From assembly GCF_900156105.1 (NCBI RefSeq), contig NZ_FTMS01000004.1, positions 1-64,000 of the forward strand: a DNA stretch of 64,000 nt, read 5' to 3'. This DNA comes from Alkalispirochaeta americana (GTDB lineage Bacteria; Spirochaetota; Spirochaetia; DSM-27196; Alkalispirochaetaceae). Shown piece after piece: positions 19,879-38,205 of this stretch. Numbering within the stretch: position 1 is the first letter of the stretch; each line of letters opens with the position of its first letter. The notes beneath the pieces are model-generated. The model did no database searches. It was not told where the DNA came from and worked only from the letters and a program-made list of their open reading frames with translations. The translations under genes were made by a program, and so were the position numbers.

Positions 19879-21456
19879 CTACGGGAGAGAAAAACTGATT
19901 TTTGTGTGCGCTCCCTCCTGATTCCACTGAATCATCTCTCCCTCCAGATCGTCCACCAGGGCTTGCACAAGGAGCATTCCCAGGGAATCCCCCTCTCGGG
20001 GGGTAAAATCATCGGGAAAGCCGGGGCCGTTGTCGGCTACAAGCAGAAAAAGCCGGGACTGGTCCTCCGAGCCGGGTTCTTCCTGACCAAAATGAAGTGT
20101 GATCGAAAACTCCGGAGAATCCCCGGCATATTTGAAAGCGTTCACCACCAGTTCCTGAATGATCAACCCCAGGGGTTTGACCACCTCCAGAGGAAGATGC
20201 ATCTCTTCTATATCCAGGCAGAGCGTTGCCGCTTTTCCTTCGGCCTCGTAGGCCTGGCAGATATACCGTATCAGGGAGCGGCAGTAATCCGGAAACAGGA
20301 CTCTTCCCAGTTCTTCACTTTGGTAAAGCATGGAATGGATCAGCGAGATCGCCGTAACCCGGCCGCGCAGATCCTGCAAAAGCACCTGTATCTCGGGGTT
20401 CGGGGTTCTGGAGGCCTGCAGAGAGAGAATACTGTCGATCACCGTCAAATGGTTCTTTACCCGATGATGGGTCTCCCGGATCTGGATTTCCCGCTCCCGG
20501 GCCAGCGCTTTGGCCTCTCGAGACTCCCATACCTGGGCCGCCCTGCGGTGAATGGCCCGCAGGAACCACCCCAGGGCGGAGAGAGCGATCAGCGAAACCA
20601 GCAGAAGCACCACCACCCTGGAGCGCCACTGCCCCAGGAAAAACTTGGGGCAGAGCACCACCGCCACATCCAGGGGAACCCCTCTGGTTCGGATGACCGC
20701 CACCAGATGGCCCTCCCGACGGCGGCTGAAGAGGGCCTGATCCACGCCCTGCCGCTCTTCTGCCCGCACCGCCGCAGCGTAGCCCCGGGGATCTCCCCAT
20801 TGGGCCACCACCTCGCCCTGGCGGGAAAAGAGGACCCCGCCCATGGTGTCACCCAGAATCATTTGAAGATTCCTGGTCAGGTACGATTCCCGCACCACCG
20901 CCTTCAGAACCACTCCTTCCTCGCTGCGATGGGAAAACCAGAGGAGCCCTTCTGCGGGAGCACCGGGCAGAGCAAGACGATGGGATGCGCCAAAGGCTGG
21001 ACAGAGAAGACATTCCTCGGGGGGAACCGGCTCGGTGCGACGCAAGACCACCTGGCGACGTTCCTGGACATCATAGACAGCGGCGTTGGCCACGGCCTCA
21101 AGGAAAAGAAAATGCTCCTCCAGGAGCCCCTGGAGGACCCGATCATCAGAGACCTCCAGACCGGCCCGGTGACGGATATCCATTTCCCGGGCCGCTGCAG
21201 CAAGGCCGGTGCGAACCTCCGCAAGGCAGTTCGTCAGGATTTGCTCCACCAGCTGCACCTGAATAAGGGCCAGCTCCTCGGCCTGGTTCACTGCCCTGCG
21301 ATGGCTCAGGGTCAGATCCACCGCGACAAAGAGCACCACCGCAACCACGGCACCGATAAAAACACCCAGACCAAGACGTACGTCGGGGGGCTGGCGGGTT
21401 TTTCTGCCTCGCTTCGGGTTCCTTCTGGATGTATCTGTCCCGGGGGTTTTTTTCAT
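19879..21456 (-). CDS. Membrane sensor histidine kinase (HisKA_2/HWE-like)
   Basis: 525 aa. Two membrane segments (~28-50 and ~279-299) bracket a ~230-residue periplasmic domain. A HisKA_2-type dimerisation helix follows with the phospho-acceptor in THHRVKNHL (H330/H331). The ATPase domain has LIIQELVVNAFKYA (N box) and DNGPGFPDDF (G1). Its ATG overlaps the stop of the TRAP-type binding protein by 4 bp, pointing to binding protein and kinase acting together. No response regulator is adjacent; the next gene is the diguanylate cyclase, which has no receiver domain. Confidence 0.9.
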   Translation of the reverse strand: MKKTPGTDTSRRNPKRGRKTRQPPDVRLGLGVFIGAVVAVVLFVAVDLTLSHRRAVNQAEELALIQVQLVEQILTNCLAEVRTGLAAAAREMDIRHRAGLEVSDDRVLQGLLEEHFLFLEAVANAAVYDVQERRQVVLRRTEPVPPEECLLCPAFGASHRLALPGAPAEGLLWFSHRSEEGVVLKAVVRESYLTRNLQMILGDTMGGVLFSRQGEVVAQWGDPRGYAAAVRAEERQGVDQALFSRRREGHLVAVIRTRGVPLDVAVVLCPKFFLGQWRSRVVVLLLVSLIALSALGWFLRAIHRRAAQVWESREAKALAREREIQIRETHHRVKNHLTVIDSILSLQASRTPNPEIQVLLQDLRGRVTAISLIHSMLYQSEELGRVLFPDYCRSLIRYICQAYEAEGKAATLCLDIEEMHLPLEVVKPLGLIIQELVVNAFKYAGDSPEFSITLHFGQEEPGSEDQSRLFLLVADNGPGFPDDFTPREGDSLGMLLVQALVDDLEGEMIQWNQEGAHTKISFSLP

Positions 21457-22508
21457 GGCATTCTCGAACGATCAGGCCCGCGCGGCGACTCCTGCAAAAT
21501 CTCCAGAAGAGCCGGGTCTATCCCCAGACGGCGGACAAAATCGGGTTGTGCCTCCAGCAGAAGACGACGGGCCCGTTCCTGCTCGTCGTGATTCACCCGA
21601 TGGATTCGAACCCCCTGGCGGACCAGCTCCCGCCGGGCCGCTTCCTGGGCTTCGGCGGCGGCGCGCCGCTGCTTTTGCACCTCTTCCTCCCAGAGAGTGC
21701 GAAAAAGGTCTTGCTCTTCGGCAGTAAAAGATTCCCAGACCCGCCGGCTCACCAGGGGGATATACTGGGGCATGTACTGGAAATCCTCCAGGGCAAACTG
21801 AACGCCCCGTTCCCAAAGCCGCCCGGAGCGTACCGTCTCGAAGGTGGTCAGAAGCCCGTCCATTTGGCCCCGTTCCAGCCGTCGGGGCACTTCCCCCCAG
21901 GCGATGGTTACCGGCTGAGCCCCCAGCTCGGCAATGCGCAGCTCGTTGGCAAGCCCCCCGGCAACGCGGATCACCTGGCCCTGCAGGTCGGCGTAGTTCT
22001 GCACCGGGCCCTGGCGGAAAAAGAGGTGCCCGTGACCCAGGTCAAACCAGCGTCCGGGAACCACCACAGGCAGGCGAGCCTCAAGGCGGCGATTTATCGC
22101 TGCTCCCAGGGGGCCATCGGCGTGATGATGAACAACCGCGAGGTCTCGCCCAAAAAACTCCGGGAGCAGAAAAACCGCTACGTCCGGCACAAACCGGTCA
22201 AGCTGCCACGTTCCGGGAACGCCCATCTCCAGGGCACCCCGGTGAAGCGCCTCAACAACGTCGCTGTCGCGAAAAAGCTCCCCCGAGGGAAAGACCTCGG
22301 CTGCGATGGCACCCTCCGTCTCGTTTCGCAGGCGTCGGGCAAACTCCTGGACCGCCAGGACCTGGACGTGGCTCGGGGCGTTTTCCAGGGATATCCGAAA
22401 CTGTCGGGGCGTCCGGGCCGACAGGGTCGGACCATTCCAGAAGAGCGCCTGAATGATCAGGACCAGGAGGATCCTGCCCGGTGAAAGAGTTCGTGCTGTT
22501 CTCACCAT
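21453..22508 (-). CDS. TRAP-type (DctP family) periplasmic binding protein, likely a sensor accessory
   Basis: 351 aa from ATG 22508; a TTG further up is unlikely. Signal-anchor-like N-terminus (GRILLVLIIQALFWNGPTLS). The DctP fold is visible as PSGELFRDSDVVEALHRGALEMGVP, RQGPVQNYADLQGQVIRV (with the Arg that binds the carboxylate of the ligand) and GQMDGLLTTFETV. No DctQ/DctM membrane subunits are in the window. It is instead translationally coupled to a histidine kinase, so it probably presents a ligand, likely an organic acid, to the kinase and does not serve transport. Confidence 0.85.
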   Translation of the reverse strand: MVRTARTLSPGRILLVLIIQALFWNGPTLSARTPRQFRISLENAPSHVQVLAVQEFARRLRNETEGAIAAEVFPSGELFRDSDVVEALHRGALEMGVPGTWQLDRFVPDVAVFLLPEFFGRDLAVVHHHADGPLGAAINRRLEARLPVVVPGRWFDLGHGHLFFRQGPVQNYADLQGQVIRVAGGLANELRIAELGAQPVTIAWGEVPRRLERGQMDGLLTTFETVRSGRLWERGVQFALEDFQYMPQYIPLVSRRVWESFTAEEQDLFRTLWEEEVQKQRRAAAEAQEAARRELVRQGVRIHRVNHDEQERARRLLLEAQPDFVRRLGIDPALLEILQESPRGPDRSRMP

Positions 22509-22556
22509 TCCAATTCTGAACCTCCCCGGGGGTTCTTGCAAGGCTCTTCGTCGCCT

Positions 22557-23677: not shown

Positions 23678-25936
23678 ATGAACCAGCCCGTGCTATGCCG
23701 AATTCTTGCAATCGGCCTCTTGATCGGTTTTTTTTCCGCTTCCCCGGCGAAGGCGTCGGAACCACCCCGCCCCACCGTGGCGGTGGTTCTGGCAGGAGGA
23801 GGAGCCCTGGGCTTTGCCCATGTGGGTGTCCTGGAGGCGATCGAGGCCCTGGGAATCCCCGTGGATATCGTGGCGGGCACCAGTATCGGCAGCATCGTGG
23901 GGGCCTTCTACGCTGCAGGCTATCGGGCAGACCAGATGGTGGCAATCACCGAAACCACCGACTGGAACGAAGTTCTCTTTGACGCCCCCGACCGGCTTCA
24001 GCTGGGCTACACCGACCGTCGACAGCGCCGGGCTTTCCGGGGATCAATCAAGTTTCGCGAGGGCGAGTTGCTCCTGCCCTCGGGAATGTCCAGCGCCCAG
24101 AGGGTGGTGGAATACCTGGACGATCTTCTTCGCGCCCAGGCCCTGACCGATTCCTTTCTGGATCTTCCCCGGCAACTTGCCATTGTTGCTGCTGATTTGC
24201 TGACGGGAGAACAGGTGGTCTTCACCGAGGGAGACCTGAAAACGGCGATCCGGGCCAGCTTTTCCGTGCCCGGAGCGTTTAACCCCGTCTATTATCAGGG
24301 ACGCTATCTGGTGGACGGGGGAATCATCAACAACGTTCCCGTGGATGTGGCACGCAACCTGGGTGCCGATATCGTGATCACCGTGAACCTCAGCGCCATG
24401 CGGAACAAACCCGAGGAACTGCGCTCGATCAGCAATATTCTGGATCAATCCATGCTGATCATGCGCAAGGAGATGCTCGACGAGCACCTGGCTCTCTCGG
24501 ATCTGATAATCAGTCCCGACGTGGAAGGGCTGGGTCCCGCCGATTTCTCCCAGGCTTCGCTGCTGATTCAACGGGGCCGCGAGGCGGCTCAAAACCAGTG
24601 GGACGAGCTTGAGCAACTCGCCCTGGAGATTCGCAAGACCCGGGGTTTTCCAGAACCTCTGACCAGCCGGCCCGAAGCTGATCAACCACTGCGGATAGGC
24701 TCGGCGCGCTACGAAGTGCCCCCCATCATCCTGGAGTCGACCCGCCAGTTCAACCCGGGAGCCTATCTGCTTCTGGAGGAACTTGTCGAATCTCTTGCCG
24801 GGACCGAGACCACCGTGAGCGGACTTCAGGAGGCGGTCTACGGGCTCTACCACACGGGGCTTTTCCGTTCCATCTCCTACGATGTGACGGGTGGGTCCGA
24901 GGTGATGATCCTGGCCTCACCCGAAGAGATTCCCAGCTCGTCCCTCTCTGTGGGGGTGGGGTTGCGGGGCCAGTTGATCGAAAACTCCCTGGGCATGGCC
25001 ATGACCCACCTGCGCTACACCTACGATCCCGGCGACGGCGCCCCCCGATGGATCCTGGAGGGCTGGCTCGCACGCAGCACCAGCCTTCGGGCAGCCCTGG
25101 AGCGACCTGTTACTCCCTGGTTTTTTATCACCCCCGCCGTCTACGCTCTGGCGGAGAATATGCCCTTCTACGATGGCCGATCGGTGGAATCCTTCTATCT
25201 GCGGCGGCGCTTCGGCGCCGAGCTGGGGGTCTCCGCCAGGATCAGCAAGAACTGGCAGTTCCGGGCCGCCGCTTTTGCCGAGTGGCTCACCTTGCAGCGC
25301 CTCGAGGGCAGCCGTATCGATGAGTTCGACTTTGAGGGAAGCGCCCGCTACGGCGGCCGATTCGAGTTCGACCGGGACACGCTGGATCGGGACCTCTTTC
25401 CCCGGCGCGGATCGGAGACACGCATCGCCCACCGAATCCACTGGGACGAAGAACAAGAGAAGTTTGTTCACCTGGGCACGCTCTCGGCCCGACGCTACTG
25501 GACGCCCCTGCGGCACGTCACCCTCCAGATGCTTGCCCGCGGAGGGTCCGATTCCTCCACGGGTGCGGCTGTCTACGAGCGTTTCTTTCTGGGCGGGGTG
25601 GAGAACTGGTACGGCTACTACTACCACGAGCTTCAGGCCCGCCATTTTGCCGTGGCCGGGGCCGACGGGCGCCTTGCCGTGGGGCGGCTCCCCCTGGGTG
25701 TGGGCGACCGGATCTATCTGGTGGCGGGTGGTCAGTACGGGGGAATTCATTCGGAACAGCCCGAGACGTTCCGGGAAGACGCCGATTACCGCTGGGGCCT
25801 TCACGCGGGACTGGCCCTGAACACCATCCTGGGAGCGCTTCACATCGGAACGGCCGTGAACAGCGAGGGCCGGGTCATGACCTTTATCGAACTGGGCCCG
25901 GCCTACACCATGGAAGGAACCGGCTACGACTGGTAG
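23678..25936 (+). CDS. Type Vd autotransporter: patatin-like phospholipase fused to a BamA-type barrel
   Basis: 752 aa with a signal peptide (residues 1-26). The patatin domain has the oxyanion loop GGGALG (40-45), nucleophile elbow GTSIG (S69) and catalytic Asp in VDGGIINN (D213), all intact. After ~residue 340 a POTRA-like segment leads to a C-terminal surface-antigen/BamA-type barrel of about 380 residues. The order matches P. aeruginosa PlpD and Fusobacterium FplA, where the barrel exports its own lipase domain. GGAGG lies before ATG 23678. The 3' end overlaps the convergent Res-like gene by 13 bp. Confidence 0.9.
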   Translation: MNQPVLCRILAIGLLIGFFSASPAKASEPPRPTVAVVLAGGGALGFAHVGVLEAIEALGIPVDIVAGTSIGSIVGAFYAAGYRADQMVAITETTDWNEVLFDAPDRLQLGYTDRRQRRAFRGSIKFREGELLLPSGMSSAQRVVEYLDDLLRAQALTDSFLDLPRQLAIVAADLLTGEQVVFTEGDLKTAIRASFSVPGAFNPVYYQGRYLVDGGIINNVPVDVARNLGADIVITVNLSAMRNKPEELRSISNILDQSMLIMRKEMLDEHLALSDLIISPDVEGLGPADFSQASLLIQRGREAAQNQWDELEQLALEIRKTRGFPEPLTSRPEADQPLRIGSARYEVPPIILESTRQFNPGAYLLLEELVESLAGTETTVSGLQEAVYGLYHTGLFRSISYDVTGGSEVMILASPEEIPSSSLSVGVGLRGQLIENSLGMAMTHLRYTYDPGDGAPRWILEGWLARSTSLRAALERPVTPWFFITPAVYALAENMPFYDGRSVESFYLRRRFGAELGVSARISKNWQFRAAAFAEWLTLQRLEGSRIDEFDFEGSARYGGRFEFDRDTLDRDLFPRRGSETRIAHRIHWDEEQEKFVHLGTLSARRYWTPLRHVTLQMLARGGSDSSTGAAVYERFFLGGVENWYGYYYHELQARHFAVAGADGRLAVGRLPLGVGDRIYLVAGGQYGGIHSEQPETFREDADYRWGLHAGLALNTILGALHIGTAVNSEGRVMTFIELGPAYTMEGTGYDW

Positions 25937-27252
25937 GGTCTCTCGCCGGGCACCACCACCAGGCTCAAGGGCGAGGCCGGATACAAACGGGGAACCCCCT
26001 CCTGGTCCACAGCGCGGCCCCAGCCGCACCGGGCCTCATCGCGCCGGGAGAGAGGGGCCGCCTCCGGTCCGAGCCGACTGATCACGCCGATCCGGCTGAT
26101 CCGGGTGATGACAAAGATATTGGGGTGATCCCACCCCTCGCGAAGCGTGCCGTGAGTAAAAAGAAACCGGCCCGGCTCGTCCAGGGACGAGAGCCCCTGC
26201 CGGTCCCGGAGAATCTCCTTCAGCACCCCTTCGTCAGTGCAACCCGGCGTAGCCGAGAGCCCCCCCTTTCGTGGTTTCGGGTTCATCCAGAGACCGCTCC
26301 TGGGATCGCGGGGAAAGTAGCCCCGGGCCGTATCGTCCGTGGCCAGAGACCGAAGGTACAGCCCGTAGGGGTCGTGGCTCTCCATCTTCTCCAGGAGAGA
26401 ATCGCGTTGCCGCCGGTATTCCTCTTGGAAAAAAAGCAGGCAGGGCCCCATCTCCCGGGGATCCCGGGGGTCGAAATACAGGCCTGTATCGTCCAGAAAA
26501 ATCAGGGACAGGACCTTTACCCCCCGGTAAAAGAGTTCCTGCTCACGCCGCAGATGGATCTCGATCACCCTGCTGATCCGGGCCGACCAGCAGGCCTCCC
26601 GAGCCTGGACCACCTCCAGCGGTTTCAGGAGCCCCCTGTCCCGGGCAGCCTGCCCATCCAGACGGTAGACCGGCCGCAGGGCCTCGCGATGAAGCGATGA
26701 GATCAGAACCTCCAGGGAGGGATGCAGCACCTCCAGAACAGCCCGCACCCGCCGGGCACTTTTCTGGTGCGGCTCCTTGAAGAACACCACCGGACGGGTG
26801 GCCTGAATCACCTCCAAAGCGCTGCGCGACTGAAACCGGTCCTGCACCTGAGACAGCTGCCGATGGTCCCTGCGGGACGACGAAATATCCTGGACAGTTG
26901 CCACCATCACGGAAACTCCCCCCTCAAGAGCGAAGGCCTGAATACGGTGCATCTCTCGGGGAGCATATCCAAAAAACCGGAGCCTGCGATGATAGATCGC
27001 GCAGAGATGATCCGCCGAGCGCTTCAGAGTATCCAGAACCTTCTCTTTTAGCTCTTGCGAGGGAACCAGAACGACAAAGGTTCGCTGGCCTCGCCGTCGG
27101 TGTAGTTCGAAGATGAATCGCACGGCGCAATAGGTACTGCCCGTTCCCCGCTCCATCTCCAGGGCAATACGACTCGAGGTCTCGGCACCGCCTATCAATG
27201 CGTCCAGTGCCTCCCGGTGGTGCGGTTCTTCAAGAAAGACCGATGGAATCAT
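25924..27252 (-). CDS. Degenerate type III restriction Res-like protein, helicase motifs lost, no nuclease domain
   Basis: 442 aa; type III Res subunits are usually 850-1000. It follows the Res helicase core throughout, but Walker A is RGTGST (36-40, no Lys). The DEP/DEAH box is FFKEPHQ (158-163). The SAT motif is SSL (185-187). The QEVGRGLRL motif VI is replaced by RRDEARCGWGRAVDQ (403-417). REGWDHPNIFVI (371-382) is kept. It ends right after the helicase domain, at the position of LTVV.NESYEEF, so the PD-ExK nuclease is absent. The frame is intact and overlaps the Mod-like gene by 4 bp. ATPase and nuclease activity are not expected. Confidence 0.8.
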   Translation of the reverse strand: MIPSVFLEEPHHREALDALIGGAETSSRIALEMERGTGSTYCAVRFIFELHRRRGQRTFVVLVPSQELKEKVLDTLKRSADHLCAIYHRRLRFFGYAPREMHRIQAFALEGGVSVMVATVQDISSSRRDHRQLSQVQDRFQSRSALEVIQATRPVVFFKEPHQKSARRVRAVLEVLHPSLEVLISSLHREALRPVYRLDGQAARDRGLLKPLEVVQAREACWSARISRVIEIHLRREQELFYRGVKVLSLIFLDDTGLYFDPRDPREMGPCLLFFQEEYRRQRDSLLEKMESHDPYGLYLRSLATDDTARGYFPRDPRSGLWMNPKPRKGGLSATPGCTDEGVLKEILRDRQGLSSLDEPGRFLFTHGTLREGWDHPNIFVITRISRIGVISRLGPEAAPLSRRDEARCGWGRAVDQEGVPRLYPASPLSLVVVPGERPYQS

Positions 27253-28418
27253 AGATAGCCTGCCACCGTACCCGGCGAGGACTCCCGGAGAAACCGTTCC
27301 AGGGCCTGCTTCTCTTCGTTCCCGGCGCAGGCACTCTCCCGGAAGACCGCGACCCCGGGGCGACGCCGAAGGATTTCTTTCAGGATCCGATCGGTCAGAG
27401 TATGACCAAACCAGGCAACAAGCCGATTATGGCCGGCACAAAAGAGGGTTCCTCCGGCCAGGACCTGCCGCTCCAGCGGGATTCCCGGGGAAATGCCACA
27501 GCTCAAAAGCGCATGAAAGAGGAGGTCCTCGGGGGTTCTCCCGGGCTTGATCCGGTCGATCTGGAGAGGAAGGTCTTGCTGGAGCTCGTCATCGTCCTGC
27601 ACGCAGGGGATCTCCCGGGTAGCGCTGTCGCCCCGGAGTAGCCGGAAGGGTATCTCCAGTGCCCGCACCTGCTCCAAGAGCCCTGAATCCTCGGGGTGCC
27701 CCGAATCCTCCGGGGGAACGATCAGAACAAACGACCTCTGGCCCTGGTCCTGGCCGTTTCGTGCCAGGACCTCTTCCATCGTTTTCAGGGGATCTTCCGG
27801 ATCGGCCAGGGCAAGGAAACAGCCCTGCCTGTCCTGCCAGGGGCTTTCTGCGGTGGTACCGGCCGCAGCGTTTTTGCAATACCTCACGGTCCTTCCGGGA
27901 CCGGCCCCCTCGCCCCAGGAGAAAAGCCGCTGTTCCTCGCCAAAGAGTTCGTCCAGCACACAGAGAAGCGGAATCTCCTCTCCCGGGGGGAGGACAACCC
28001 GAAGGAGCCCCCGATCCTGCAGGAGGTTCCAGGCAAGCCGGAACAGCGGATAGGCCTCTGAGAGCCAGGCCGAATGGTTCTGGCCCTGACGCTCCGGCTC
28101 CGCCGGGGGAGCAGGCAGGGAGAGGGAGATCACCGCCACCTGTTCCAGAAGGCTCTCCTGAAGCATTTTGAAAGCCCCCAGCGGTTCCTCCTGAATCACC
28201 ATGTTCCGGGCCTGGTCAAAGAGAAAACTCTCCTCGCGCCGGGGCCGGAGAACCCTGTCGGTTGACTCCCGGGACCGGCGCAACGCCTCAATCCGCCCGG
28301 GCCAGTTCAGGTGGTAGCGCTCACCCCCGGCGGGCGGGGCCGAGCCGGGAGGGTTCACCCCCCAGGGGGTGCCAGGAGGGTCCTCGAGAGGAAAAAAAGC
28401 CGTGTCAATCTGTTCCAC
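27249..28418 (-). CDS. Degenerate type III Mod-like protein, methyltransferase motifs lost
   Basis: 389 aa; Mod subunits are usually 550-700. The N-terminus matches Mod: ERYHLNWPGRIEALRRSRE (33-51), LRPRREESFLFD (57-68), NMVIQEEPLGAFKMLQ (72-87). Where Mod has IDPPYNTG there is LSLPAPPAEPE (99-109). Next come YPLFRLAWNLLQDRGLL and LDELFGEEQRL, as in Mod. The FAGSGTT SAM motif is absent. The C-terminus again matches Mod (RIKPGRTPEDLLFHALLS, AVFRESACAGNEEKQALERFLRESSPGT). GTG start at 28418, no clear RBS. No methyltransferase activity is expected; subunit-assembly surfaces seem preserved. Confidence 0.8.
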   Translation of the reverse strand: MEQIDTAFFPLEDPPGTPWGVNPPGSAPPAGGERYHLNWPGRIEALRRSRESTDRVLRPRREESFLFDQARNMVIQEEPLGAFKMLQESLLEQVAVISLSLPAPPAEPERQGQNHSAWLSEAYPLFRLAWNLLQDRGLLRVVLPPGEEIPLLCVLDELFGEEQRLFSWGEGAGPGRTVRYCKNAAAGTTAESPWQDRQGCFLALADPEDPLKTMEEVLARNGQDQGQRSFVLIVPPEDSGHPEDSGLLEQVRALEIPFRLLRGDSATREIPCVQDDDELQQDLPLQIDRIKPGRTPEDLLFHALLSCGISPGIPLERQVLAGGTLFCAGHNRLVAWFGHTLTDRILKEILRRRPGVAVFRESACAGNEEKQALERFLRESSPGTVAGYL

Positions 28419-28485
28419 GGTGCCAAGAATAGCACATTTTCCCCTTCCCCGCAGAGCCCCGCCTCGGGGCAGTTTCAGGGCAGAA

Positions 28486-28992
28486 TCAGGATCTTTCCTC
28501 GCGGATCAACCCTCGTGCCCAGACCCGGGCAGCCTCACAATCCTTCCCGTCGGGATGGGTTGAAGCATCGCGCCACCGTTTAAGACGTTCCTCGGTAGGT
28601 CCATGAGGATGATCAGGCGGGAGACTCTCCATCCAATTCTGAAGCTTGGAATCCACTGCACCCTGGCAGACAAAAGATCCCACCAAAGGGGCCCCAGAAA
28701 GGAATTCCGAGGCACGCTCCATGCTTTCCCGGGCATGGTTCGAATCGGGATATGCTCCCAGGGTAGCAAAGAGGGCCGTTGGCGTGGTCCCCACCCGTTG
28801 CAAATACTCCCGGGCTGCAACATCGGCAGTTCCCTTGTCAACCCAAAATCCCAAGACAAGAAGGTCAAACCCCTCCGGTGAGGGCGCCTCTTCCACAGGG
28901 AACAGTTCTGCCCGGGGCATTTCCTGGTGTATGGCCCGGGCAATCGTCTCGGTATTTCCCGTCCTGCTGGAATAAACAATCATGGTTTTCAT
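28486..28992 (-). CDS. Flavodoxin family protein (BilS-like)
   Basis: 168 aa. The N-terminal phosphate-binding loop YSSRTGNTETIA (~7-18) binds FMN. LLVLGFWVDKGTADVAAREYL and LFATLGAYPDSNHA are typical of the flavodoxin group annotated near tetrapyrrole-reducing enzymes. It is the last gene of the heme operon, 87 bp after the binding protein. It probably supplies low-potential electrons to the HutW-type radical SAM enzyme or reduces its product. That role is inferred from context. Confidence 0.82.
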   Translation of the reverse strand: MKTMIVYSSRTGNTETIARAIHQEMPRAELFPVEEAPSPEGFDLLVLGFWVDKGTADVAAREYLQRVGTTPTALFATLGAYPDSNHARESMERASEFLSGAPLVGSFVCQGAVDSKLQNWMESLPPDHPHGPTEERLKRWRDASTHPDGKDCEAARVWARGLIREERS

Positions 28993-29079
28993 CTCTCACT
29001 CCTCGCTATCTGCCTATGTACATATTCGATTGCCTGCGTGGCCTATCGTCGGTGTCGGACTCCTGTCTTCCCTGACGGT

Positions 29080-30123
29080 CTAACTCTGTGATCGGTGTGG
29101 CGGAAGTTTTTCCGCCAGCCTTTCCATCTCTTCCAGAAGATGGACCGAGGCACGCATGATCATGGTGGAAGGAATGATCTCTATATTCTTCTCCCGTCCG
29201 GCCCGGGTCATCACCACGGCCTGATCAGCCAGAAGAATATCGTCCACACTCTGCAGACTCATGGCACCCCAGATAAAGTCGGGATCGGCTGTCAGGAGAT
29301 ACTCGGGAGATACAATGGGCCTCGCCCCCGTGAGCGGGTCAGCCAGATTTTCCACCCCCAGAAGCCGCAAGATGTCTCCCGCCAGGGAAGTACTGGCAAA
29401 GGCCTGCATGGGGTGGGCCGTATAAATAAAGAGTCCTCGCAGGGGAAGTTGCCCCTCCCGATCCCTCTGGCGTTGCTCTAGCAAAGACTCCAGGGATATT
29501 ACCATCTCCCTCGCCTCCTGGCCCGTTTCCGTGAGATCACCCAAAATCTCTGCGTGCTCGAGAATAGACTTCACCGAAGCAGGGTTATAGACCAGGGCGG
29601 GAATGCCCCGGGAGTAGAGTGTCCCGGCTAAATCCGGGTTCATGGGGTCCACGATTACCAGATCGGGATCAGCCATCACGAGGTGCTCCAGACTCACCCG
29701 GGAAACGGTACCCACCGTGGGCAGCCGGGCAGTCTCTTCGGCAGGAGCAATCGGTATACGGCTCTCCACGGTGGCAATAATCCGGTCACCCCCGCCCAAG
29801 GCAAAGATCGTCTCCACCGCGCCCGCTGCGAGGACAATAATCTCCCCGTAGGGGCGCAGGGGAACCCGGTTTCCCAGGCTGTCGGCAATGTAAAGATCCT
29901 GCCCCTCCTGAACTCTTTGCCAGGAGCTGTCGGACCCTGCCGGTCCGGCAGGGACAGCCGATCCCCCGCCACCCTGTTCTCGGGACGATCCTCCCGGGGA
30001 TGCTCCCGAGCGGGCTTCGGGGCGCACCCCCCACCGCGCCAGGGAGGGAAGAGCCAGAAAAAATCCCCCCGCAGCAACAATTATTCCCAGAGCCAGAAGG
30101 GCTACTCTTTTTTTTCTCGTCAT
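29080..30123 (-). CDS. ABC transporter periplasmic heme/iron-complex binding protein (BtuF/HutB-like)
   Basis: 347 aa. An N-terminal hydrophobic segment (VALLALGIIVAAGGFFLAL) is followed by a Gly/Ser/Pro linker of ~50 residues. The clamshell fold then begins with GNRVPLRPYGEIIVLAAGAVETIFALGGGDRIIATV. It continues with VSLEHLVMADPDLVIVDP and GIPALVYNP, as in helical-backbone metal receptors. The N-terminus lacks a lipobox Cys, so it is either cleaved or membrane-tethered. Its ATG overlaps the HutW-like stop. Substrate heme is inferred from the operon. Confidence 0.85.
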   Translation of the reverse strand: MTRKKRVALLALGIIVAAGGFFLALPSLARWGVRPEARSGASPGGSSREQGGGGSAVPAGPAGSDSSWQRVQEGQDLYIADSLGNRVPLRPYGEIIVLAAGAVETIFALGGGDRIIATVESRIPIAPAEETARLPTVGTVSRVSLEHLVMADPDLVIVDPMNPDLAGTLYSRGIPALVYNPASVKSILEHAEILGDLTETGQEAREMVISLESLLEQRQRDREGQLPLRGLFIYTAHPMQAFASTSLAGDILRLLGVENLADPLTGARPIVSPEYLLTADPDFIWGAMSLQSVDDILLADQAVVMTRAGREKNIEIIPSTMIMRASVHLLEEMERLAEKLPPHRSQS

Positions 30124-31550
30124 GGTTTTTCCTTTCTCTTTTTCTGCGTCGGGTTGAAGGATGCCTCAGGGGAGAGAAGAGCGCGAAGAAGATCGACGGC
30201 TATGTTGTTCCCCCAGAAAACGCCCCTCTCTGTGAGCCGGGCCTCGCCCGGGGCTACAGCATCCATCAGCCCCTCACTCCGGTAGCGTTCAATATGCTTC
30301 CGGATTATCCCCCCGAGTTGGGACTTCTCCAGGGAGAGGCCACCAGTTCGAGCCATAATCAGGATCTCCGGCACCAGCTCTTCGGGTCGGTAGATTCCTC
30401 TCTGAAGAGTTCCCAAAAGACGGTTCGCCGCCTCTTCCGCCTCCGATCGCGGAGCAACCATGACCATCCCCGGCTGGGGTCTCATGAGACATTTCCCGGG
30501 AACCCGGCCGCCCGCTCCCGTTCCAAAGGGGAGAACACTTCCGGCGCCGTACATCAGATCGATGTAACGGTAGGCATCACGTCCCGGCAGAACAACCTTC
30601 GTAAGCTCCCGCAGCTCGTACCCGCCCCCGTAGAGAAGGGAAAGAAACCGGCGATGGAGCTTCTCTTCCGTTTCGAGGGTGCGATCGAAGGAAATCGCAC
30701 CGGCGCGCACGCTCTTCTCCAGGGGGGAATCTTTCTGAAGCATGAGCGAGTAGAAGCTGACGCTATCCACTCCCAGATCAATGGCTCGGCGTGCATCGTC
30801 TTCCAGATGTTCCAGAGTCTGACCGGGATAGCTGTAAATCAGATCTATCGAGAGAGTTCCGGGAAAGTTTTTTCTGATCTCTGCCACCCGGCGAAAGGCG
30901 CGCTCACCGTCGCCGCTCCGGGCCAGGACCTTCCGGCCCTGATCACTGAAAGTCTGAACGCCAAGACTCAACCGGTTCACACCGCCCCTCACCAGGGTAT
31001 CCAGCATCTCCCCGTCCAGATTGTGAAGCGTGGTCTCTACGGTGATTTCACACTGCGACGAATATCGGAAAAGCTCTTCTGCCGAAGAGAGGACCGCTGA
31101 AAAATCTTCCGGCGAGAGCACCGTGGGAGTTCCCCCGCCAAAATACAGCGCTTCGACCCGCCCCTCTCCAAAAAAGGGGTGGCCCTGACACTCTTCAAGC
31201 TGGGAGCAAATGACCCCGGCGTACTCCCTGGCACGTGAGAAAACCCTGACTGGATCTCCCCCTATTTTTTCCCGGTTCAGGTTGCAGAAGCTGCAGAGAC
31301 GATCACAGAAGGGAACGTGGAAATAGGCCCCGTAGGAATCGCCCCCGGATTCTCCGGGCAAGTGAGCGACCAAAGGGGCTCTTCCGGGCCTCTGGCCTCC
31401 TCCGGCAACCGGACCACGGGGGTGGTGGCCCGGCGGGCGTTGTCCCGACGAGGGGTGCCCTGGTCCGGGGTGGTCCGGTATCGAAAGCAGATCAGCGATG
31501 GCGTGCTGGGCCTCGTGGTGCGAGCGAAGACGTCGGGAAATCTCACGCAC
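30120..31550 (-). CDS. hutW: HutW/ChuW-type radical SAM heme-degrading methyltransferase
   Basis: 476 aa from GTG 31550, with GGAGG six bases upstream; this start overlaps the ATPase gene by 8 bp. The HemN-like radical SAM core has FHVPFCDRLCSFCNLN (CxxxCxxC cluster ligands), YFGGGTPTVLSPEDF and LSLGVQTFSDQGRKVL. In ChuW/HutW relatives the enzyme opens heme anaerobically, releasing iron and giving a linear tetrapyrrole (anaerobilin). A role as coproporphyrinogen oxidase is less likely, because it is embedded in a heme-uptake operon with TonB receptor, HmuY and ABC genes. Confidence 0.85.
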   Translation of the reverse strand: MREISRRLRSHHEAQHAIADLLSIPDHPGPGHPSSGQRPPGHHPRGPVAGGGQRPGRAPLVAHLPGESGGDSYGAYFHVPFCDRLCSFCNLNREKIGGDPVRVFSRAREYAGVICSQLEECQGHPFFGEGRVEALYFGGGTPTVLSPEDFSAVLSSAEELFRYSSQCEITVETTLHNLDGEMLDTLVRGGVNRLSLGVQTFSDQGRKVLARSGDGERAFRRVAEIRKNFPGTLSIDLIYSYPGQTLEHLEDDARRAIDLGVDSVSFYSLMLQKDSPLEKSVRAGAISFDRTLETEEKLHRRFLSLLYGGGYELRELTKVVLPGRDAYRYIDLMYGAGSVLPFGTGAGGRVPGKCLMRPQPGMVMVAPRSEAEEAANRLLGTLQRGIYRPEELVPEILIMARTGGLSLEKSQLGGIIRKHIERYRSEGLMDAVAPGEARLTERGVFWGNNIAVDLLRALLSPEASFNPTQKKRKEKP

Positions 31551-32367
31551 AGGAAACCTCCCTCGCTGCGGAGACCCTGGGAAGGACGTAGGGAATCCCC
31601 TCCTGGTCGTGGTGAACAACCAGCGAGACACCGTAAACCTCCCGTATAATCTCCCGGGTGATCACCTGCCCGGGCTCCCCGCAGACAAAGACCTCACCCG
31701 CTTTCATAATGGCGATCCGATCACACCAGGAGGCAGCCAGGTTCAGATCGTGCATGACCGACACAACCGATAGGCCCTCCCTGGCGACCTTGTTTTTTAC
31801 GATTTCCATTATTTCAAGGGTGTGGTGGATATCAAGATTACTGGTAGCTTCATCAAGAAAAAGAACTGGAGCCTCCTGAACAAAGGCTCGAGCCAGCAAA
31901 ACTTTCTGAAATTCACCACCCGATAACTCTGTTACCGGCCGGTGAATGAACTCGCTGAGGGACAGATCCCGCAAAACCTCTCTTGTCAGACGGAAATCGC
32001 TGCCGCTATACCCGCCAAATCGCAATCCCTTCCGGGAATATCTCCCCATAAGAACAGCCTGAAATACCGTCAGGGGAGCCCGTAAACCCGAATTCTGGGG
32101 AACAAAGGCGACCTTTCGTGCTCGCTCCCGGGGTGTCAGCGACTCCAGGGAAAGACCCGCAAGCTCGATCTCTCCTTCCCGGGCCTTCAGGTGCCCGAAC
32201 ATCGTCTTGAGCAGGGTTGATTTCCCCGATCCGTTGGGCCCCAAAACGCCCAGAATCTCTCCCGGCAGCAGATCCAGACCGATCTTTTTCAAACAGGGCC
32301 GGAGATGGTAGTCAAAAGATACATCCCGGGCCCTGAGCCTGATCGCTGACCCTTCACCAGATATCAC
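31543..32367 (-). CDS. Heme/iron ABC transporter ATPase
   Basis: 274 aa from GTG 32367, whose GTGA overlaps the permease stop. The upstream extension of this open frame is antisense-like shadow inside the permease gene. Walker A GPNGSGKST, signature LSGGEFQKVLLARA, Walker B VLFLDEATSNLD and the switch His in SVMHDLN are all intact. It belongs to the FecE/BtuD/HmuV subfamily and powers import across the inner membrane. Confidence 0.93.
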   Translation of the reverse strand: MISGEGSAIRLRARDVSFDYHLRPCLKKIGLDLLPGEILGVLGPNGSGKSTLLKTMFGHLKAREGEIELAGLSLESLTPRERARKVAFVPQNSGLRAPLTVFQAVLMGRYSRKGLRFGGYSGSDFRLTREVLRDLSLSEFIHRPVTELSGGEFQKVLLARAFVQEAPVLFLDEATSNLDIHHTLEIMEIVKNKVAREGLSVVSVMHDLNLAASWCDRIAIMKAGEVFVCGEPGQVITREIIREVYGVSLVVHHDQEGIPYVLPRVSAAREVSCA

Positions 32368-33428
32368 AGGATCATCCCCGAACTTCGCATGCGGCAGGCC
32401 AGAACGATAAAGAAAGGCGCCCCCGTGAAGGCCGTCACAACTCCGATGGGAATCTCCGTGGGAGCCAGAAGCGTCCTCGCCAGAATGTCGGCGACCAGCA
32501 AAAAGACTCCTCCCCCCAGGGCTGAGGCGATCACCAGTCGCGTATTGGAGTGACCCAGAATCAACCGGAGCGCGTGGGGAACGATAAGACCCACAAAGCC
32601 GATCATACCGCAGAAGGCCACGGAAAAGGCTACAATCAGGGCGCTCACCGCCAAAAGCTCTTTCTTCAGAGCTCCCACCCTGAGGCCCATGGCGTGAGCT
32701 TCCTCGTCGCTGCACATGAGGGCATCCATTTCATGGCGGCGATACACAAAGAAGGTCGTTGCCAACACCATTGGAAAAGAGGCGATCCCCACGCGGGACC
32801 AGGTGGATCCTCCCAGATATCCCATGGTCCAGACAATTATCCGGTAACTGTCCTCACCGATCGCATACATCGCGAAAGAAGTCATGGCCCCCAGAAAAGA
32901 CGACACAGCTACCCCCACGATGAGAAGCGTTGAGACACTGAGCCCGTCTCCCCGTGCGGCAAACCGGAAAAGCAGCAGCGCCGTGGCCAGACTTATGCCA
33001 AAACCGATAATCCCGTACCACACCTCGGAGAGGCCCAGCGAATAGGCCAGGACAGCGCCAGCCACGGCGCTCGCACTAATACCGATGATGTAGGGATCGG
33101 CCAGGGGATTCCGGAACACCGCCTGTACCACCGTACCCGATGTGGCGAGCATGGTTCCCACCAGGAGAGCCATGATCACCCGGGGCAACCGCAAACTCCA
33201 GATTACGGCGACGGCCTGAGCCTCTTCCGGAAGAGACCTGCCCGCCAGCGCCCGCAGAACCACTCGGGGCTCCAGCGGGACAGCCCCGATCATCACTCCC
33301 AAGAGGCAGAGCCCTCCACCAGACAGAAAGACCATCACGAGAAACAGGGAAAACCCCCGTGATCCCCCAGTTCCGGAGAACCTGTATCGACCCGGATCAG
33401 AAACCGCAGATCGGGCAACTTCAGCCAT
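32364..33428 (-). CDS. FecCD-family heme/iron ABC transporter permease
   Basis: 354 aa from ATG 33428, seven bases after GGAGG. Family signatures include RLPRVIMALLVGTMLATSGTVVQAVFRNPLADPYIIGISASA and GMIGFVGLIVPHALRLILGHSN, with about ten TM segments. It is partner of the ATPase downstream and the binding protein at 29080. Confidence 0.94.
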   Translation of the reverse strand: MAEVARSAVSDPGRYRFSGTGGSRGFSLFLVMVFLSGGGLCLLGVMIGAVPLEPRVVLRALAGRSLPEEAQAVAVIWSLRLPRVIMALLVGTMLATSGTVVQAVFRNPLADPYIIGISASAVAGAVLAYSLGLSEVWYGIIGFGISLATALLLFRFAARGDGLSVSTLLIVGVAVSSFLGAMTSFAMYAIGEDSYRIIVWTMGYLGGSTWSRVGIASFPMVLATTFFVYRRHEMDALMCSDEEAHAMGLRVGALKKELLAVSALIVAFSVAFCGMIGFVGLIVPHALRLILGHSNTRLVIASALGGGVFLLVADILARTLLAPTEIPIGVVTAFTGAPFFIVLACRMRSSGMIL

Positions 33429-33499
33429 CGTTTTTCCTCCCTGACACCACACGCTCCTTGAAAACAGCATCCAGCCCTTCGGGTCCCCGGGCCCGAATC

Positions 33500-34273
33500 T
33501 TATATCTCCAGCCGAAAATGAATTGGCACAACAAAGGTGATAATCTCCCTCAAAAACCCTTCGGAAAACTCCGCAAAGGGAGCCGCACGGGTAACCGCCT
33601 CCAGGGCGGCCCTGTTCAAGGCAGGATACCGGGAGGGACTGTGAATATCGGGCCCCTCCACGATCGTTCCCGCCGAAGAGAGAGAGAACCGGACCACCAC
33701 GGTCCCTTCCTGCTCTCTCCGGCGAGCCACCAGGGGATACTGCCGGGCCTTTTCTATCCCTGTCCGGACCTGACCGATGTAGCGCTCCAGAAGATCCTCC
33801 CGGGATGGTTCGGGCCCTCTCTGGTCCGGAATATTCCGGGAGGCCTCACCCGGCACGCCATCGGTCTCTTCGGGTTCGATGGAGCCTGCGGACTCACCGG
33901 CCCCCTCGGATTCGCTGGCTTCTTCGGTATTTCCGAGGGGCTCTTCTTCCCGATCACGGGAAACATCCGCCTCCTGATCGTAAGGCTCTTCCCGGTCCGG
34001 TTTTTCTTCGCTGTCCCGAGTTTCGGGTTTCAGGCTCTCCGGCTCGGGAAGCATCCGGTCGGGTTCTTTGGCAACTCTCTCGGGGAGGTCTCCCCCCGGG
34101 GCGGGGATTCGCTCCCGCTCTTCCGGCCAGGATCCCATTGCAAGAGATATTTCCCGAGCTTCTCCCGGAGCAGATTGATCGCCCCGGGAATATCCCGACA
34201 AGCCAGCCAGCACCAGGCCGTGAACCACCAGCGAAAAGAGCACCGCGGCCCTTCCTCTTCCACCAAATCTCAT
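33500..34273 (-). CDS. tonB: TonB energy-transducing protein
   Basis: 257 aa. A short cytoplasmic start and one TM helix (AAVLFSLVVHGLVLAGLSGY, ~9-28) with a His, as in TonB, are followed by a long acidic Pro/Glu-rich spacer (~45-150). The C-terminal domain reads ARQYPLVARRREQEGTVVVRFSLSSAGTI...SRYPALNRAALEAV. It links proton-driven ExbBD to the outer-membrane receptor encoded in the same operon. The spacer is Glu/Asp-rich where TonB more often has Pro-Lys repeats. Confidence 0.9.
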   Translation of the reverse strand: MRFGGRGRAAVLFSLVVHGLVLAGLSGYSRGDQSAPGEAREISLAMGSWPEERERIPAPGGDLPERVAKEPDRMLPEPESLKPETRDSEEKPDREEPYDQEADVSRDREEEPLGNTEEASESEGAGESAGSIEPEETDGVPGEASRNIPDQRGPEPSREDLLERYIGQVRTGIEKARQYPLVARRREQEGTVVVRFSLSSAGTIVEGPDIHSPSRYPALNRAALEAVTRAAPFAEFSEGFLREIITFVVPIHFRLEI

Positions 34274-34276
34274 CGG

Positions 34277-34738
34277 TCACCAGATTTCATCACTGCCCGC
34301 AGCGTCTCCGGTCCGGTGCGACAAATTGATTCGCTCTATGCCGAACTCCTTCAAGAGATCGATCACGGAAAAGATGACCCCGTAGGCGGCCCCCTCATCA
34401 CCCCGGATCGAGACCACCGGTGATGCCTCCCCGGGATCATCGCGGAAAGATCCGAACCAGGAAAAAAGAAAGACCTCCAGCGACTCAAGACAGGCCCCCT
34501 CGCCGTTCACTCTTAACCGACCCCCGCCATCAACTGTTATGGCGATATCAGGGACCTCCCCCGGGAGGGGCGAATTTTCCCTGGAAAGGGGAAGATTCAC
34601 GGGCACAGCCGGATCCACAAAGACCGAGGTAAGAACAAAAAAGAGCAGTAGCATGAAGAGCACATCGATGAGAGGTGTCATATCGATGCTCACCGCCTTG
34701 GGGTGATCATGATACCTGAACGCTACAAACCGCTTCAT
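34277..34738 (-). CDS. exbD: ExbD/TolR family protein
   Basis: 153 aa from ATG 34738, which overlaps the exbB end by 32 bp. A short N-terminus is followed by the single TM helix SIDMTPLIDVLFMLLLFFVLTSVF, containing the proton-path Asp (PLIDVLF). Periplasmic domain follows, with VDGGGRLRVNGE and SIRGDEGAAYGVIFSVIDLLKEFGI. It works with ExbB to energise TonB. Confidence 0.92.
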   Translation of the reverse strand: MKRFVAFRYHDHPKAVSIDMTPLIDVLFMLLLFFVLTSVFVDPAVPVNLPLSRENSPLPGEVPDIAITVDGGGRLRVNGEGACLESLEVFLFSWFGSFRDDPGEASPVVSIRGDEGAAYGVIFSVIDLLKEFGIERINLSHRTGDAAGSDEIW

Positions 34739-35381
34739 AGTCCTCGTCAGACTCCTCCCGGGAGGACTCCCTGTCCCTTTCCTGATCGCTCCTCCTGTCG
34801 GTGTCAAAAGAGACGGAACGCCCGAAAAAATCGTTCAGATCATCAATGAAATCCTCCATCCTCTCCGCCCTGCGGCGGGAGAGGCTGTGAAAGATATGAA
34901 AAGCCGTCATGGAGGGCACCGCCACCATCAGACCGAAAGCAGTTGTAAACAGCGCAACCCGGATTCCTCCCGCCAGGAAATGAATCTCGGCCCTCCCTCC
35001 GCTTGCCTCGATCCCCTGAAAAACACCAATCATCCCCAGCACCGTTCCAAAGAGCCCCATGAGGGGTGCCAGGTGCGCGATCGCCGAGAGCACCCCGAGG
35101 CCCCGGTTGAGCTCCCGAATCATGGCGGCGGCCCCCCGAGACACTCGTTTTTCAAGGATTTCCCGGGGCTCATCACGGGATGCGGCGTAGATCGTCGCCA
35201 GCCTGGAGAGCTCTCCCCGGCCATCGGCAACGGCGCCATTTCTGCAGTTTCTGATCACCCCTTGCGGGCACTCCATGGAACGGACGAAATAGATCGTCCG
35301 TTCCGCAGAGACAGCCAGGGCAAGGACTGAAGAAACCAGGATGGGGTACATGGGCCACCCGCCCTGAATAAACCAATCCAT
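34707..35381 (-). CDS. exbB: ExbB/TolQ/MotA proton-channel family protein
   Basis: 224 aa from ATG 35381, five bases after AAGGAG. N-terminal TM (MYPILVSSVLALAVSAERTIYF) and the conserved LGVLSAIAHLAPLMGLFGTVLGMIGVF and GGIRVALFTTAFGLMVAVPSMTAF helices are as in ExbB. The C-terminal tail is charged and partly overlaps exbD. Confidence 0.92.
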   Translation of the reverse strand: MDWFIQGGWPMYPILVSSVLALAVSAERTIYFVRSMECPQGVIRNCRNGAVADGRGELSRLATIYAASRDEPREILEKRVSRGAAAMIRELNRGLGVLSAIAHLAPLMGLFGTVLGMIGVFQGIEASGGRAEIHFLAGGIRVALFTTAFGLMVAVPSMTAFHIFHSLSRRRAERMEDFIDDLNDFFGRSVSFDTDRRSDQERDRESSREESDEDYEAVCSVQVS

Positions 35382-35400
35382 GCGCACTCCTTCCCGGGAC

Positions 35401-36150
35401 CTACTGCAACGCTTTGTACTGCAGCTCGTAGATTCGGGAAGAATCCTCCCCGTTTTCGAGACCCGAAACCTGTACCGCCGAGTAACCGCTTCCGTCACCG
35501 TGCCGGACAATGTACACCCGGTTCCTCACGCGAAAATCAGGAGGCATTCCGCCGGCGTTGTAGTAATACTCCTCCTGGTTATACAGAAAGATCGCGCTGA
35601 AGGGATCGCTCTCGCTCCCATCGGCGGTACCGTCTGAATGGGGCTCGTTGTCGTACCCCACGTAGGTCATTACATTCATTCGAACCGGGCGGGAACCGCC
35701 CATCATCGCTGGGTAGTCGATCCACCGGAGGGCGTCTGTGTTATAGACTCCTGCAAAGGTGGCTCCTGTTACGGAATGGACCTCGTCCAGGCTGGTCTTG
35801 CCGGTGTACCACACGCCACCCTCGCCACCGGAGCTGTAATGGTCCGCCGTGGCCCCGCTGTTGGTATAGATAAACCTTCCGCTGTCCAGGGCCAGATCCC
35901 ACCGGTCGCTGGCGGCAAGGTCCTCATCACCGCTGGCAGAGACGCTCCCCGTTGCAAGGGTGACAAACCGGATGCCACCATCGGGAACTGTCAGGGCCAC
36001 CGTGCCCTGTGACCGTCGGGAGGAACTGCTGCTCCCGGAATCGAAGGCATCACATCCGGCCAGAACCGTCAGCGCTACCCCAAGCAACCCCACGAGGACA
36101 CCCTTTCCGAAGGAAGGGACCCCTTCTCTCATCCTGATCACTGCTTTCAT
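35401..36150 (-). CDS. HmuY-like heme-binding lipoprotein
   Basis: 249 aa from ATG 36150 after AAAGGAG. Lipoprotein signal (GLLGVALTVLAGC) with lipobox LAGC, then a short Ser-rich linker (CDAFDSGSSSSSRRS). The body has DRWDLALDSGRFIYTNSG and a FAGVYNTDALRWIDY segment, as in HmuY family proteins that bind heme outside the cell and hand it to the TonB receptor. It lies between the receptor and exbB, which supports that role. Heme-ligand residues cannot be assigned from sequence alone. Confidence 0.78.
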   Translation of the reverse strand: MKAVIRMREGVPSFGKGVLVGLLGVALTVLAGCDAFDSGSSSSSRRSQGTVALTVPDGGIRFVTLATGSVSASGDEDLAASDRWDLALDSGRFIYTNSGATADHYSSGGEGGVWYTGKTSLDEVHSVTGATFAGVYNTDALRWIDYPAMMGGSRPVRMNVMTYVGYDNEPHSDGTADGSESDPFSAIFLYNQEEYYYNAGGMPPDFRVRNRVYIVRHGDGSGYSAVQVSGLENGEDSSRIYELQYKALQ

Positions 36151-36183
36151 TCTGACTCCTTTCGTGGCGACCACACAATTTTT

Positions 36184-38205
36184 CTAGAAGATCGCCTCAA
36201 ATCCGATCGTAAAGAGGGGTCCGTAGTAGGGCCCCAGGTTCGAGTTGATGTATCCCGTGATATTCTCCACCGCTGCAAAGATCGAGAGGGCCTGACCAAT
36301 CTCCTTTGATCCCTGCAGATCAAGGCGGTAACGGTGATCCCCGCTGCTCCCTCTCTCATCAGGGTCCAGAGGAGACCAATAGAGACCGGACAAACGGAAC
36401 GAGAGTCCCCTGGCAGGATCGTCAAAGCCCCAACGGCCCCGGGCCGTGAGAAAGGGTTCCTCCCGAATCAGGGACGTCTCGCTCCGGTTGTAGGCAAAGA
36501 GATACCCCGCTGCTCCCGAGAGGTATCCTCTCCTGCCCAGACCGATTCGGCCCTCCAGGTCCAGACCAGTCCGGAGACTTCGATCCAGGTTTTCTGTGCG
36601 GTATATGATCTTCCCGCTCTGGGTATCCTCTTTTCCGGTATCGCGATACATGATCTCCCGGTAGAGCTCGGTGTAGTAGGCGTTGATCTGGAAGAAGAAC
36701 GTTCCGGCGACGTACTCGAGACCCAGATTCCCCCCCAGACTGTATTCCGGATCAAGGTCGGGATTTCCCGCGATCGTATAGGGCATGGCCGAGATCTGGT
36801 TATTGTACAGATAGAGATCGTTGAAATCAGGGGCCCGGTATCCCAGACCCAGACCTCCCAGAAGCCGAAGTTCCTCTGCCAGATAATACATGGCCGCCAG
36901 GCGGGGTGCCGCTGCATAGCCGTACCGGGAATCCCGCTCCACCCTCATGCCCAGAACCAGTGAATGCTGCCCCTCGTGATACCATTCCCCCTGCACCACC
37001 AGGGCCTGTCCGTTGCGGGAAACCTCTCCGCCCCTTCCTCCCAGGGTGAGGACGTCCCGTTCCATGGTGTTCAGGCTCGCCTCCATGCCAGCCACGACCA
37101 TCAGGTCATCCTGTATGTCCATGGTGGCGTAGAGGTCTCCCGCAAGAATATTTTCCCGCTCCGTATCGCCCGAGCTCCAGGTTCCAAGAATCCCCGAGTA
37201 CTGTTCCCGATCCCTTTGGTAATAATGGTTGTAGATCTGACCCTGCCACGATATCCGGTCACCCTGAAAATACTCACCCTTAACAAACCCTTCGACGCGG
37301 CTGATATCCTGGCGGCTCAAACTTCCCTGAAAGTTTGTCTGCTCATCGGAACGCAGCGAGAGGAGACTGCCACCAAGCCGGAGGTCTCCCGCCTCGGCCA
37401 GAGCCAACCGTGATTCAAATCCCGCCTTGATCCGGCGATATTCGGGAAGGATCGAGCGGGCCCCCCGCTCATCAAGGTAGAGTTCTCCTTTCCCTCCATC
37501 GAGGGTTATCCGATTTTCCAGGGGCCCCGCAGAAAAGGTCGCCTGGGCTGCCACGGTCTGCTCCCGAAAGGCCGATGCATCCCCGGAGGAATTATTGTCC
37601 CCATCGGGGTCTTTGTACGGAGGAAGCCCGGAATTTCTTACCCGGACGGTAAGAGACCGATCCCCCGAAGGAGGCACGGTGACAACGTTGATCACGCCCC
37701 CGATCCCGTCAGATCCGTAGAGAGCCGACTGCGAACCCCGAACGATCTCGATCCGTTCCACGTCACCCACAGGAAGGGTTGCCCCATTCAACCGCCGGGC
37801 AACCCGGCCGGGAACCCTTCGTCCATCCACCAGGAACAGAACCCGACTGCCACCCATGCCCTGAATGGTGATGTAGTCCCCCATGGCGTTGGAGGTAAAC
37901 ATCAGGCCATGATCTTCCAGCACATCCGAAACAGTCGAGGCGTTGGATCGCTGAATGTCGTCCCTGCTGATCACTTCGGTAAAGACCGGGGTATCCTTCA
38001 GGCGCTTCCTGACCCGCAGCGCGGTAACGGTGATATCATCCAGAACGATATCGTCCGCTTCCATCTCCGGTTCAACCAGGACGATCTCGTGGCGGCCCCG
38101 ATCTTCTTCCTCCCGAATCTCTTCACCCGCAGTATCACGGACTGAGATGATTGCAAGGCCTATGGTAATCAGGAGAGCCGCTCTCCCCTGTAACAAGTTG
38201 ATCAT
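36184..38205 (-). CDS. TonB-dependent outer-membrane receptor (heme-type)
   Basis: 673 aa from ATG 38205, behind GGAGAG. Signal peptide (ALLITIGLAIISVRDTAG), a TonB-box region around DDIVLDDITVTA, and a plug domain with TPVFTEVISRDDIQRSNASTVSDVLEDHGLMF, GMGGSRVLFLVDGRRVPG and the VERIEIVRGSQSALYGSDGIGGVINVVT signature follow. The barrel ends in YYGPLFTIGFEAIF with a terminal Phe. It is first gene of the ten-gene heme operon. HmuY, HutW and FecCD partners make heme the likely substrate. Confidence 0.92.
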   Translation of the reverse strand: MINLLQGRAALLITIGLAIISVRDTAGEEIREEEDRGRHEIVLVEPEMEADDIVLDDITVTALRVRKRLKDTPVFTEVISRDDIQRSNASTVSDVLEDHGLMFTSNAMGDYITIQGMGGSRVLFLVDGRRVPGRVARRLNGATLPVGDVERIEIVRGSQSALYGSDGIGGVINVVTVPPSGDRSLTVRVRNSGLPPYKDPDGDNNSSGDASAFREQTVAAQATFSAGPLENRITLDGGKGELYLDERGARSILPEYRRIKAGFESRLALAEAGDLRLGGSLLSLRSDEQTNFQGSLSRQDISRVEGFVKGEYFQGDRISWQGQIYNHYYQRDREQYSGILGTWSSGDTERENILAGDLYATMDIQDDLMVVAGMEASLNTMERDVLTLGGRGGEVSRNGQALVVQGEWYHEGQHSLVLGMRVERDSRYGYAAAPRLAAMYYLAEELRLLGGLGLGYRAPDFNDLYLYNNQISAMPYTIAGNPDLDPEYSLGGNLGLEYVAGTFFFQINAYYTELYREIMYRDTGKEDTQSGKIIYRTENLDRSLRTGLDLEGRIGLGRRGYLSGAAGYLFAYNRSETSLIREEPFLTARGRWGFDDPARGLSFRLSGLYWSPLDPDERGSSGDHRYRLDLQGSKEIGQALSIFAAVENITGYINSNLGPYYGPLFTIGFEAIF

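Follow-up and report, generated by a model that had tools for sequence, protein, structure and literature searches.

The locus and its genes

The window analysed here, a 64,000-nucleotide stretch of Alkalispirochaeta americana (contig NZ_FTMS01000004.1), contains two open genes on the minus strand, encoding a Mod-like protein followed by a Res-like protein (Table 1). The sequence-only reading had placed two open genes with a 4-bp overlap at 25924-28418, and both frames are confirmed at these positions. An orthologous pair lies at the same site and in the same order in A. alkalica (DSM 8900; NZ_KB891708.1), with the flavodoxin/haem-uptake genes on one side and the patatin gene on the other. The 3' end of the Res-like gene runs 13 bases into the convergent patatin gene (25924-25936), as it does in A. 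alkalica, and the last few Res-like residues (YQS) are shared because of this overlap. Immediately ahead of it, the A. alkalica Res-like protein carries a 20-residue insertion.

A block of identical bases precedes and includes the start of the Mod-like gene in both species and holds TGCTATTCT seven bases ahead of the GTG. The remainder of the intergenic gap has diverged and differs in length by 18 bases between the species. The TGnTATTCT sequence resembles an extended -10 element and, judged by its position, is probably the pair's own promoter, producing a leaderless message. Most of the first 32 Mod-like residues (28323-28418) are missing from A. alkalica through an in-frame insertion or deletion; the GTG start and the upstream block are identical despite this difference in the N-terminal 32 residues.

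Table 1. Features of the Mod-like/Res-like pair and its upstream neighbour (window positions)
Feature	Position	Strand	Remarks
Res-like gene	25924..27252	-	ATG start, 442 aa; PADLOC REase_III 7.3e-66; RecA1-RecA2 core of type III Res
Motif VI remnant RRDEARCGWGR	26014..26046	-	True Res RRQEVGRGLR; arginine fingers and GRGLR lost
Helicase motif V LREGWD, retained	26128..26145	-	Alignment
Junction, Pin domain (EcoP15I 288-365) deleted	26589..26590	-	Alignment
Motif III remnant SSL	26692..26700	-	SSI in A. alkalica; SAT in true Res; alignment
DExx box remnant KEPH	26767..26778	-	MEPH in A. alkalica; DEP in true Res; alignment
Walker A remnant GTGST (Lys to Ser)	27133..27147	-	True GTGKT; identical in A. 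alkalica
Helicase motif Q remnant (Gln to His in the window)	27193..27228	-	Following Q-arm insertion deleted; alignment
ATGA stop/start overlap, 4 bases	27249..27252	-	Couples Mod-like and Res-like genes; also in A. alkalica
Mod-like gene	27249..28418	-	GTG start, 389 aa; PADLOC MTase_III 1.3e-42; relic of type III Mod subunit
Mod C-terminal domain, retained	27252..27566	-	pLDDT ∼97 over most of it
Junction, motif I segment with DFFAGS (SAM binding) deleted	27767..27768	-	Alignment
Junction, TRD and flanking residues deleted	27887..27888	-	Residue 177/178; alignment
Mod motif IV (DPPY) site, now S100-L-P-A103	28110..28121	-	Alignment with nine true Mods
30 bases identical in both species	28410..28439	-	Spans TGnTATTCT (28434-28426) and the GTG start; alignment
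Haem/iron-type uptake operon	28486-38268	-	Its end adjoins the pair

Descent and losses

The Res-like protein matches Pfam ResIII (9.5e-11), the NCBIfam type III endonuclease model (7.4e-28), and EcoP15I Res (1.8e-20). The Mod-like protein matches EcoP15I Mod weakly (0.0027) and has no match in Pfam or NCBIfam. Both were aligned with references from other Spirochaetia (nine complete Mods and 12 Res proteins), and domain boundaries were mapped from the EcoP15I domain map (PMC4490356). The two proteins are collinear with the true subunits, with clean internal deletions, and share only ∼30 to 35% identity with any true subunit. Descent of both proteins from type III Mod and Res is far beyond chance.

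The Mod-like protein lacks the N-terminal dimerisation domain, the target recognition domain (TRD), and the motif X/I segment but retains the remaining methyltransferase (MTase) shell and the entire C-terminal domain. DPPY has become SLPA within ISLSLPAPP, and LPA is also found in A. alkalica, so that the (D/N)PPY of a type III Mod is absent. The SAM-binding motif I segment is deleted in both species, and the TRD that defines a type III Mod is likewise deleted.

The Res-like protein retains RecA1 and RecA2 without the Q-arm, Pin domain, spacer, or nuclease, and it ends directly after motif VI, where a true Res continues to its C-terminal nuclease domain. The Walker A lysine and the DExx aspartate expected of a Res are missing (GTGST and KEP/MEP). 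The alignment covers 103 columns that never vary in true Res, of which 55 are preserved in both species; those lost include the Walker A Lys, the DExx Asp, the SAT Ala and Thr, and both motif VI arginines.

The alignments agree with the sequence-only reading that DPPY is replaced and motif I (FAGSGTT) absent from Mod (the motif is deleted), and that Res has Walker A without Lys, KEP for DEP, SSL for SAT, an altered motif VI, and no nuclease. Two broader statements hold in part. The losses are real, but not all catalytic motifs are erased, as motif V (REGWD) and the DExx glutamate are retained; and a likeness running nearly end to end is correct as to descent but not as to coverage, as whole domains are gone from both proteins.

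Predicted structures

AlphaFold2 models have a mean pLDDT of 81.7 (Mod-like) and 79.4 (Res-like), the inputs being alignments with true Mod and Res relatives, which steer the models towards that fold. In a structural search, the best match of the Mod-like model is EcoP15I Mod (4zcf_A; Z 22.6, 331 residues, rmsd 4.6) and that of the Res-like model is EcoP15I Res (4zcf_C; Z 24.4, 368 residues, rmsd 4.2), with the EcoP15I subunits well above the next unrelated structures. In both models the fold follows the EcoP15I arrangement. From the pLDDT values and the structural matches, the deletions therefore appear to leave a foldable core.

Selection on the pair

In A. alkalica, both frames are open, with the same deletions, motif losses, and architecture. 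Amino-acid identity between the species is 71% for both proteins, and internal indels are all multiples of three. In the one pairwise comparison available from the two genomes that carry the pair, dN/dS is 0.258 (95% confidence interval, 0.191 to 0.346) and 0.270 (0.209 to 0.343) for the two genes, similar to values for ordinary neighbours (periplasmic binding protein, 0.25; radical SAM gene, 0.28). Divergence at the three codon positions is ∼0.19/0.15/0.41. A neutral simulation using the pair's own fourfold-site pattern gave an identity of ≤0.30, against the 0.71 observed. The shared deletions and motif losses place inactivation before the species split, so that selection acted on the dead forms.

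Two further points of interpretation were considered and set aside. Constraint from an overlapping reading frame is not the cause, as four of the remaining five frames have a dN/dS of 1.4 to 2.4; values for the -2 frame are low (0.34 and 0.45), but they are so in neighbouring genes too (0.16 to 0.37), which is expected from the codon register. Open frames were not taken as proof of function, since neutral drift at this G+C content adds only ∼3 stops per gene.

This last result bears on the possibility that the genes are slowly decaying pseudogenes, open by chance in a G+C-rich genome with few stop codons. The pair is found in only two species, and in a phylogeny of 70 Res cores its stem is very long, at 1.8 substitutions per site against ∼0.22 for the tips; we read this pattern as change that was either prolonged or rapid, followed by constraint. 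Nevertheless, decay is rejected by dN/dS, codon periodicity, and the neutral simulation; all indels are in frame and the cis element is conserved, and we consider this explanation very improbable. On the sequences of the two species, the pair is best described as selected pseudoenzymes and not as decaying pseudogenes. The suggestion of the sequence-only reading that the genes are not in recent decay is thus upheld by the test that this reading had itself set, namely orthologues with the same losses under purifying selection: rounded dN/dS values of 0.26 and 0.27 have upper limits (0.35 and 0.34) far from 1, and the sister species has no frameshifts or stops.

Distribution and genomic context

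Whether the same dead pair occurs in other spirochaetes, as the sequence-only reading had asked, has a mixed answer: it is present in A. alkalica, and no third pair was recognised among genomes sampled from the family (8), the order (46), the class (395 for Mod-like and 297 for Res-like), and the phylum (393). Scans of viral contigs with alignments of the dead pair gave nothing, and phage and plasmid records contained distant relatives only, the best among the matches listed having ∼35% identity. Res matches in the sampled order, class, and phylum are nearly all in frames of 720 to 1,130 aa. A few short Res frames occur elsewhere, e.g., one of 291 aa (G067 C3). Another, in genome G130 (contig 191; L031 1075-2382), is only 435 aa long and ends early in RecA2, which may reflect a frameshift or a separate truncation.

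The surfaces that the proteins retain are those between subunits, and the pair might therefore act as a decoy or dominant-negative form that blocks incoming type III subunits, or a phage anti-restriction protein, by mixing with them. The phylum does contain type III systems, and a genome of the same genus (G006) has full-length Mod and Res genes. However, with ∼30 to 35% identity to true Mod and Res, mixed complexes are doubtful; no other type III system that could provide a resident partner was found in either pair-carrying genome, and the pair has no defence-island context, its neighbours being the haem/iron uptake operon. We regard a decoy as unlikely.

The operon encodes a TonB-dependent receptor, TolQ/ExbB-like and TolR/ExbD-like proteins, TonB, an ABC permease and ATPase, a HutW-like radical SAM protein, a periplasmic binding protein, and a flavodoxin. 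The pair follows directly downstream of the flavodoxin and haem-uptake genes and in the same direction, and pair and operon occur together in both pair-carrying genomes. Genome G005 keeps the asnA-patatin neighbours but has neither pair nor operon at that site, where no remnant of the pair is found and other genes follow directly. Pair and haem-uptake operon thus mark this small lineage at this position. This association could indicate a DNA-bound regulator of the operon or of the patatin gene, but neighbourhood by itself is weak evidence, and the pair, having lost the TRD that would give specificity, contains no new DNA-binding domain; such a role seems improbable.

Proposed explanation

We propose that the ancestor of the two Alkalispirochaeta species held a type III Mod-Res system, that its modification, ATPase, and nuclease parts were then lost, and that the two remaining non-catalytic proteins have been kept by selection. 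The two proteins may interact by way of the retained interface, in which the Mod MTase shell and C-terminal domain would face the Res RecA domains. The C-terminal domain of Mod contacts Res in EcoP15I, and taken as a whole, the parts retained here are the ones that ModA uses for its contact with Res (PMC4490356). The TRD and Pin, which are proposed to dock mutually during sliding, have been lost together. Retention of the contact set alongside this joint loss leads to the reading that the selected entity is, with somewhat better than even odds, a static, non-catalytic Mod-Res complex, probably one-to-one because the Mod dimerisation domain is gone.

Alternatively, the two proteins could act separately, their pairing being merely historical; the pairing is known from sequence alone, which cannot show a complex. 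However, the rate of evolution is equal for both genes, as is dN/dS, the 4-base overlap is present in both species, and it is the Mod-Res contact parts that are retained, so that we consider separate action doubtful.

For a static Mod-Res complex, the least supported step is its mode of action: we infer that a rigid complex would act by binding instead of by restriction, its most likely partner being duplex DNA, irrespective of sequence, or another nucleic-acid machine. The idea of DNA binding is weak, as motif V alone of the EcoP15I DNA contacts is clearly kept, and the TRD and Pin, the main DNA contacts, are gone. The net charge of the Res-like proteins (+11 and +15) was rejected as proof of DNA binding because true Res cores span -4 to +16, which includes both values. 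Overall, we assign a probability of roughly 0.5 to a domesticated scaffold, that is, a non-catalytic Mod-Res complex with a new role, which might be to bind nucleic acid, to regulate, or to interfere with foreign systems. Among the roles named in the sequence-only reading (regulator, decoy, or defence modulator), the sequence itself favours none.

Relation to known systems

Adjacent homologues of Mod and Res, as in type III R-M, are present, but the pair is not a member of the functional type III R-M family because the features that define that family were tested and are missing. It resembles EcoP15I (Mod2Res1; PDB 4ZCF) in mod-res order, collinear core, MTase shell and C-terminal domain, RecA1-RecA2, and predicted folds. 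Unlike EcoP15I, it has no Mod DPPY, motif I, TRD, or N-terminal domain and no Res Walker Lys, DExx Asp, arginine fingers, Q-arm, Pin, spacer, or nuclease.

In the phasevarion type III systems of Neisseria and Haemophilus, Mod is an active methyltransferase and res is inactive (PMC3311624). As there, a type III locus appears to have been kept for a purpose other than restriction. Only res is dead in those systems, whereas here both genes are dead, open, and selected, and the catalytic and SAM motifs of an active Mod are absent from the Mod-like protein. Solitary (orphan) R-M methyltransferases lack the partner gene, and their methylation is thought to be kept (PMC4176335). They too are R-M-derived genes kept outside restriction, but the present case would be the reverse, in that the partner is kept and, to judge from the motif losses, activity has been lost. 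METTL14, in METTL3-METTL14, has a beta-class adenine MTase fold, has lost catalysis, and is the structural partner of an active MTase. The METTL3 and METTL14 chains are weak fold matches to the Mod-like model. METTL14 supports an active MTase, whereas the partner of the Mod-like protein would be a dead ATPase.

The retention of R-M genes is generally attributed to restriction or methylation. Here the motifs for both are gone, yet selection continues on both subunits together. No paired dead type III system is described in the open-licence papers searched, and we found no prior description there of a pseudoenzyme pair derived from R-M. The pair adds a paired case, from two species, to the pseudoenzymes, and a Mod-Res scaffold without chemistry poses a directly testable question that involves two small genes in a cultured genus.

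Uneven divergence along the region

Between positions 19879 and 35510, dS is uneven. It is ∼0.2 for the binding protein and permease genes and 0.56 for the patatin gene, and reaches 0.7 to 0.9 in the dead pair and in the genes at 19879-22541. These several-fold differences suggest patchy exchange between the species.
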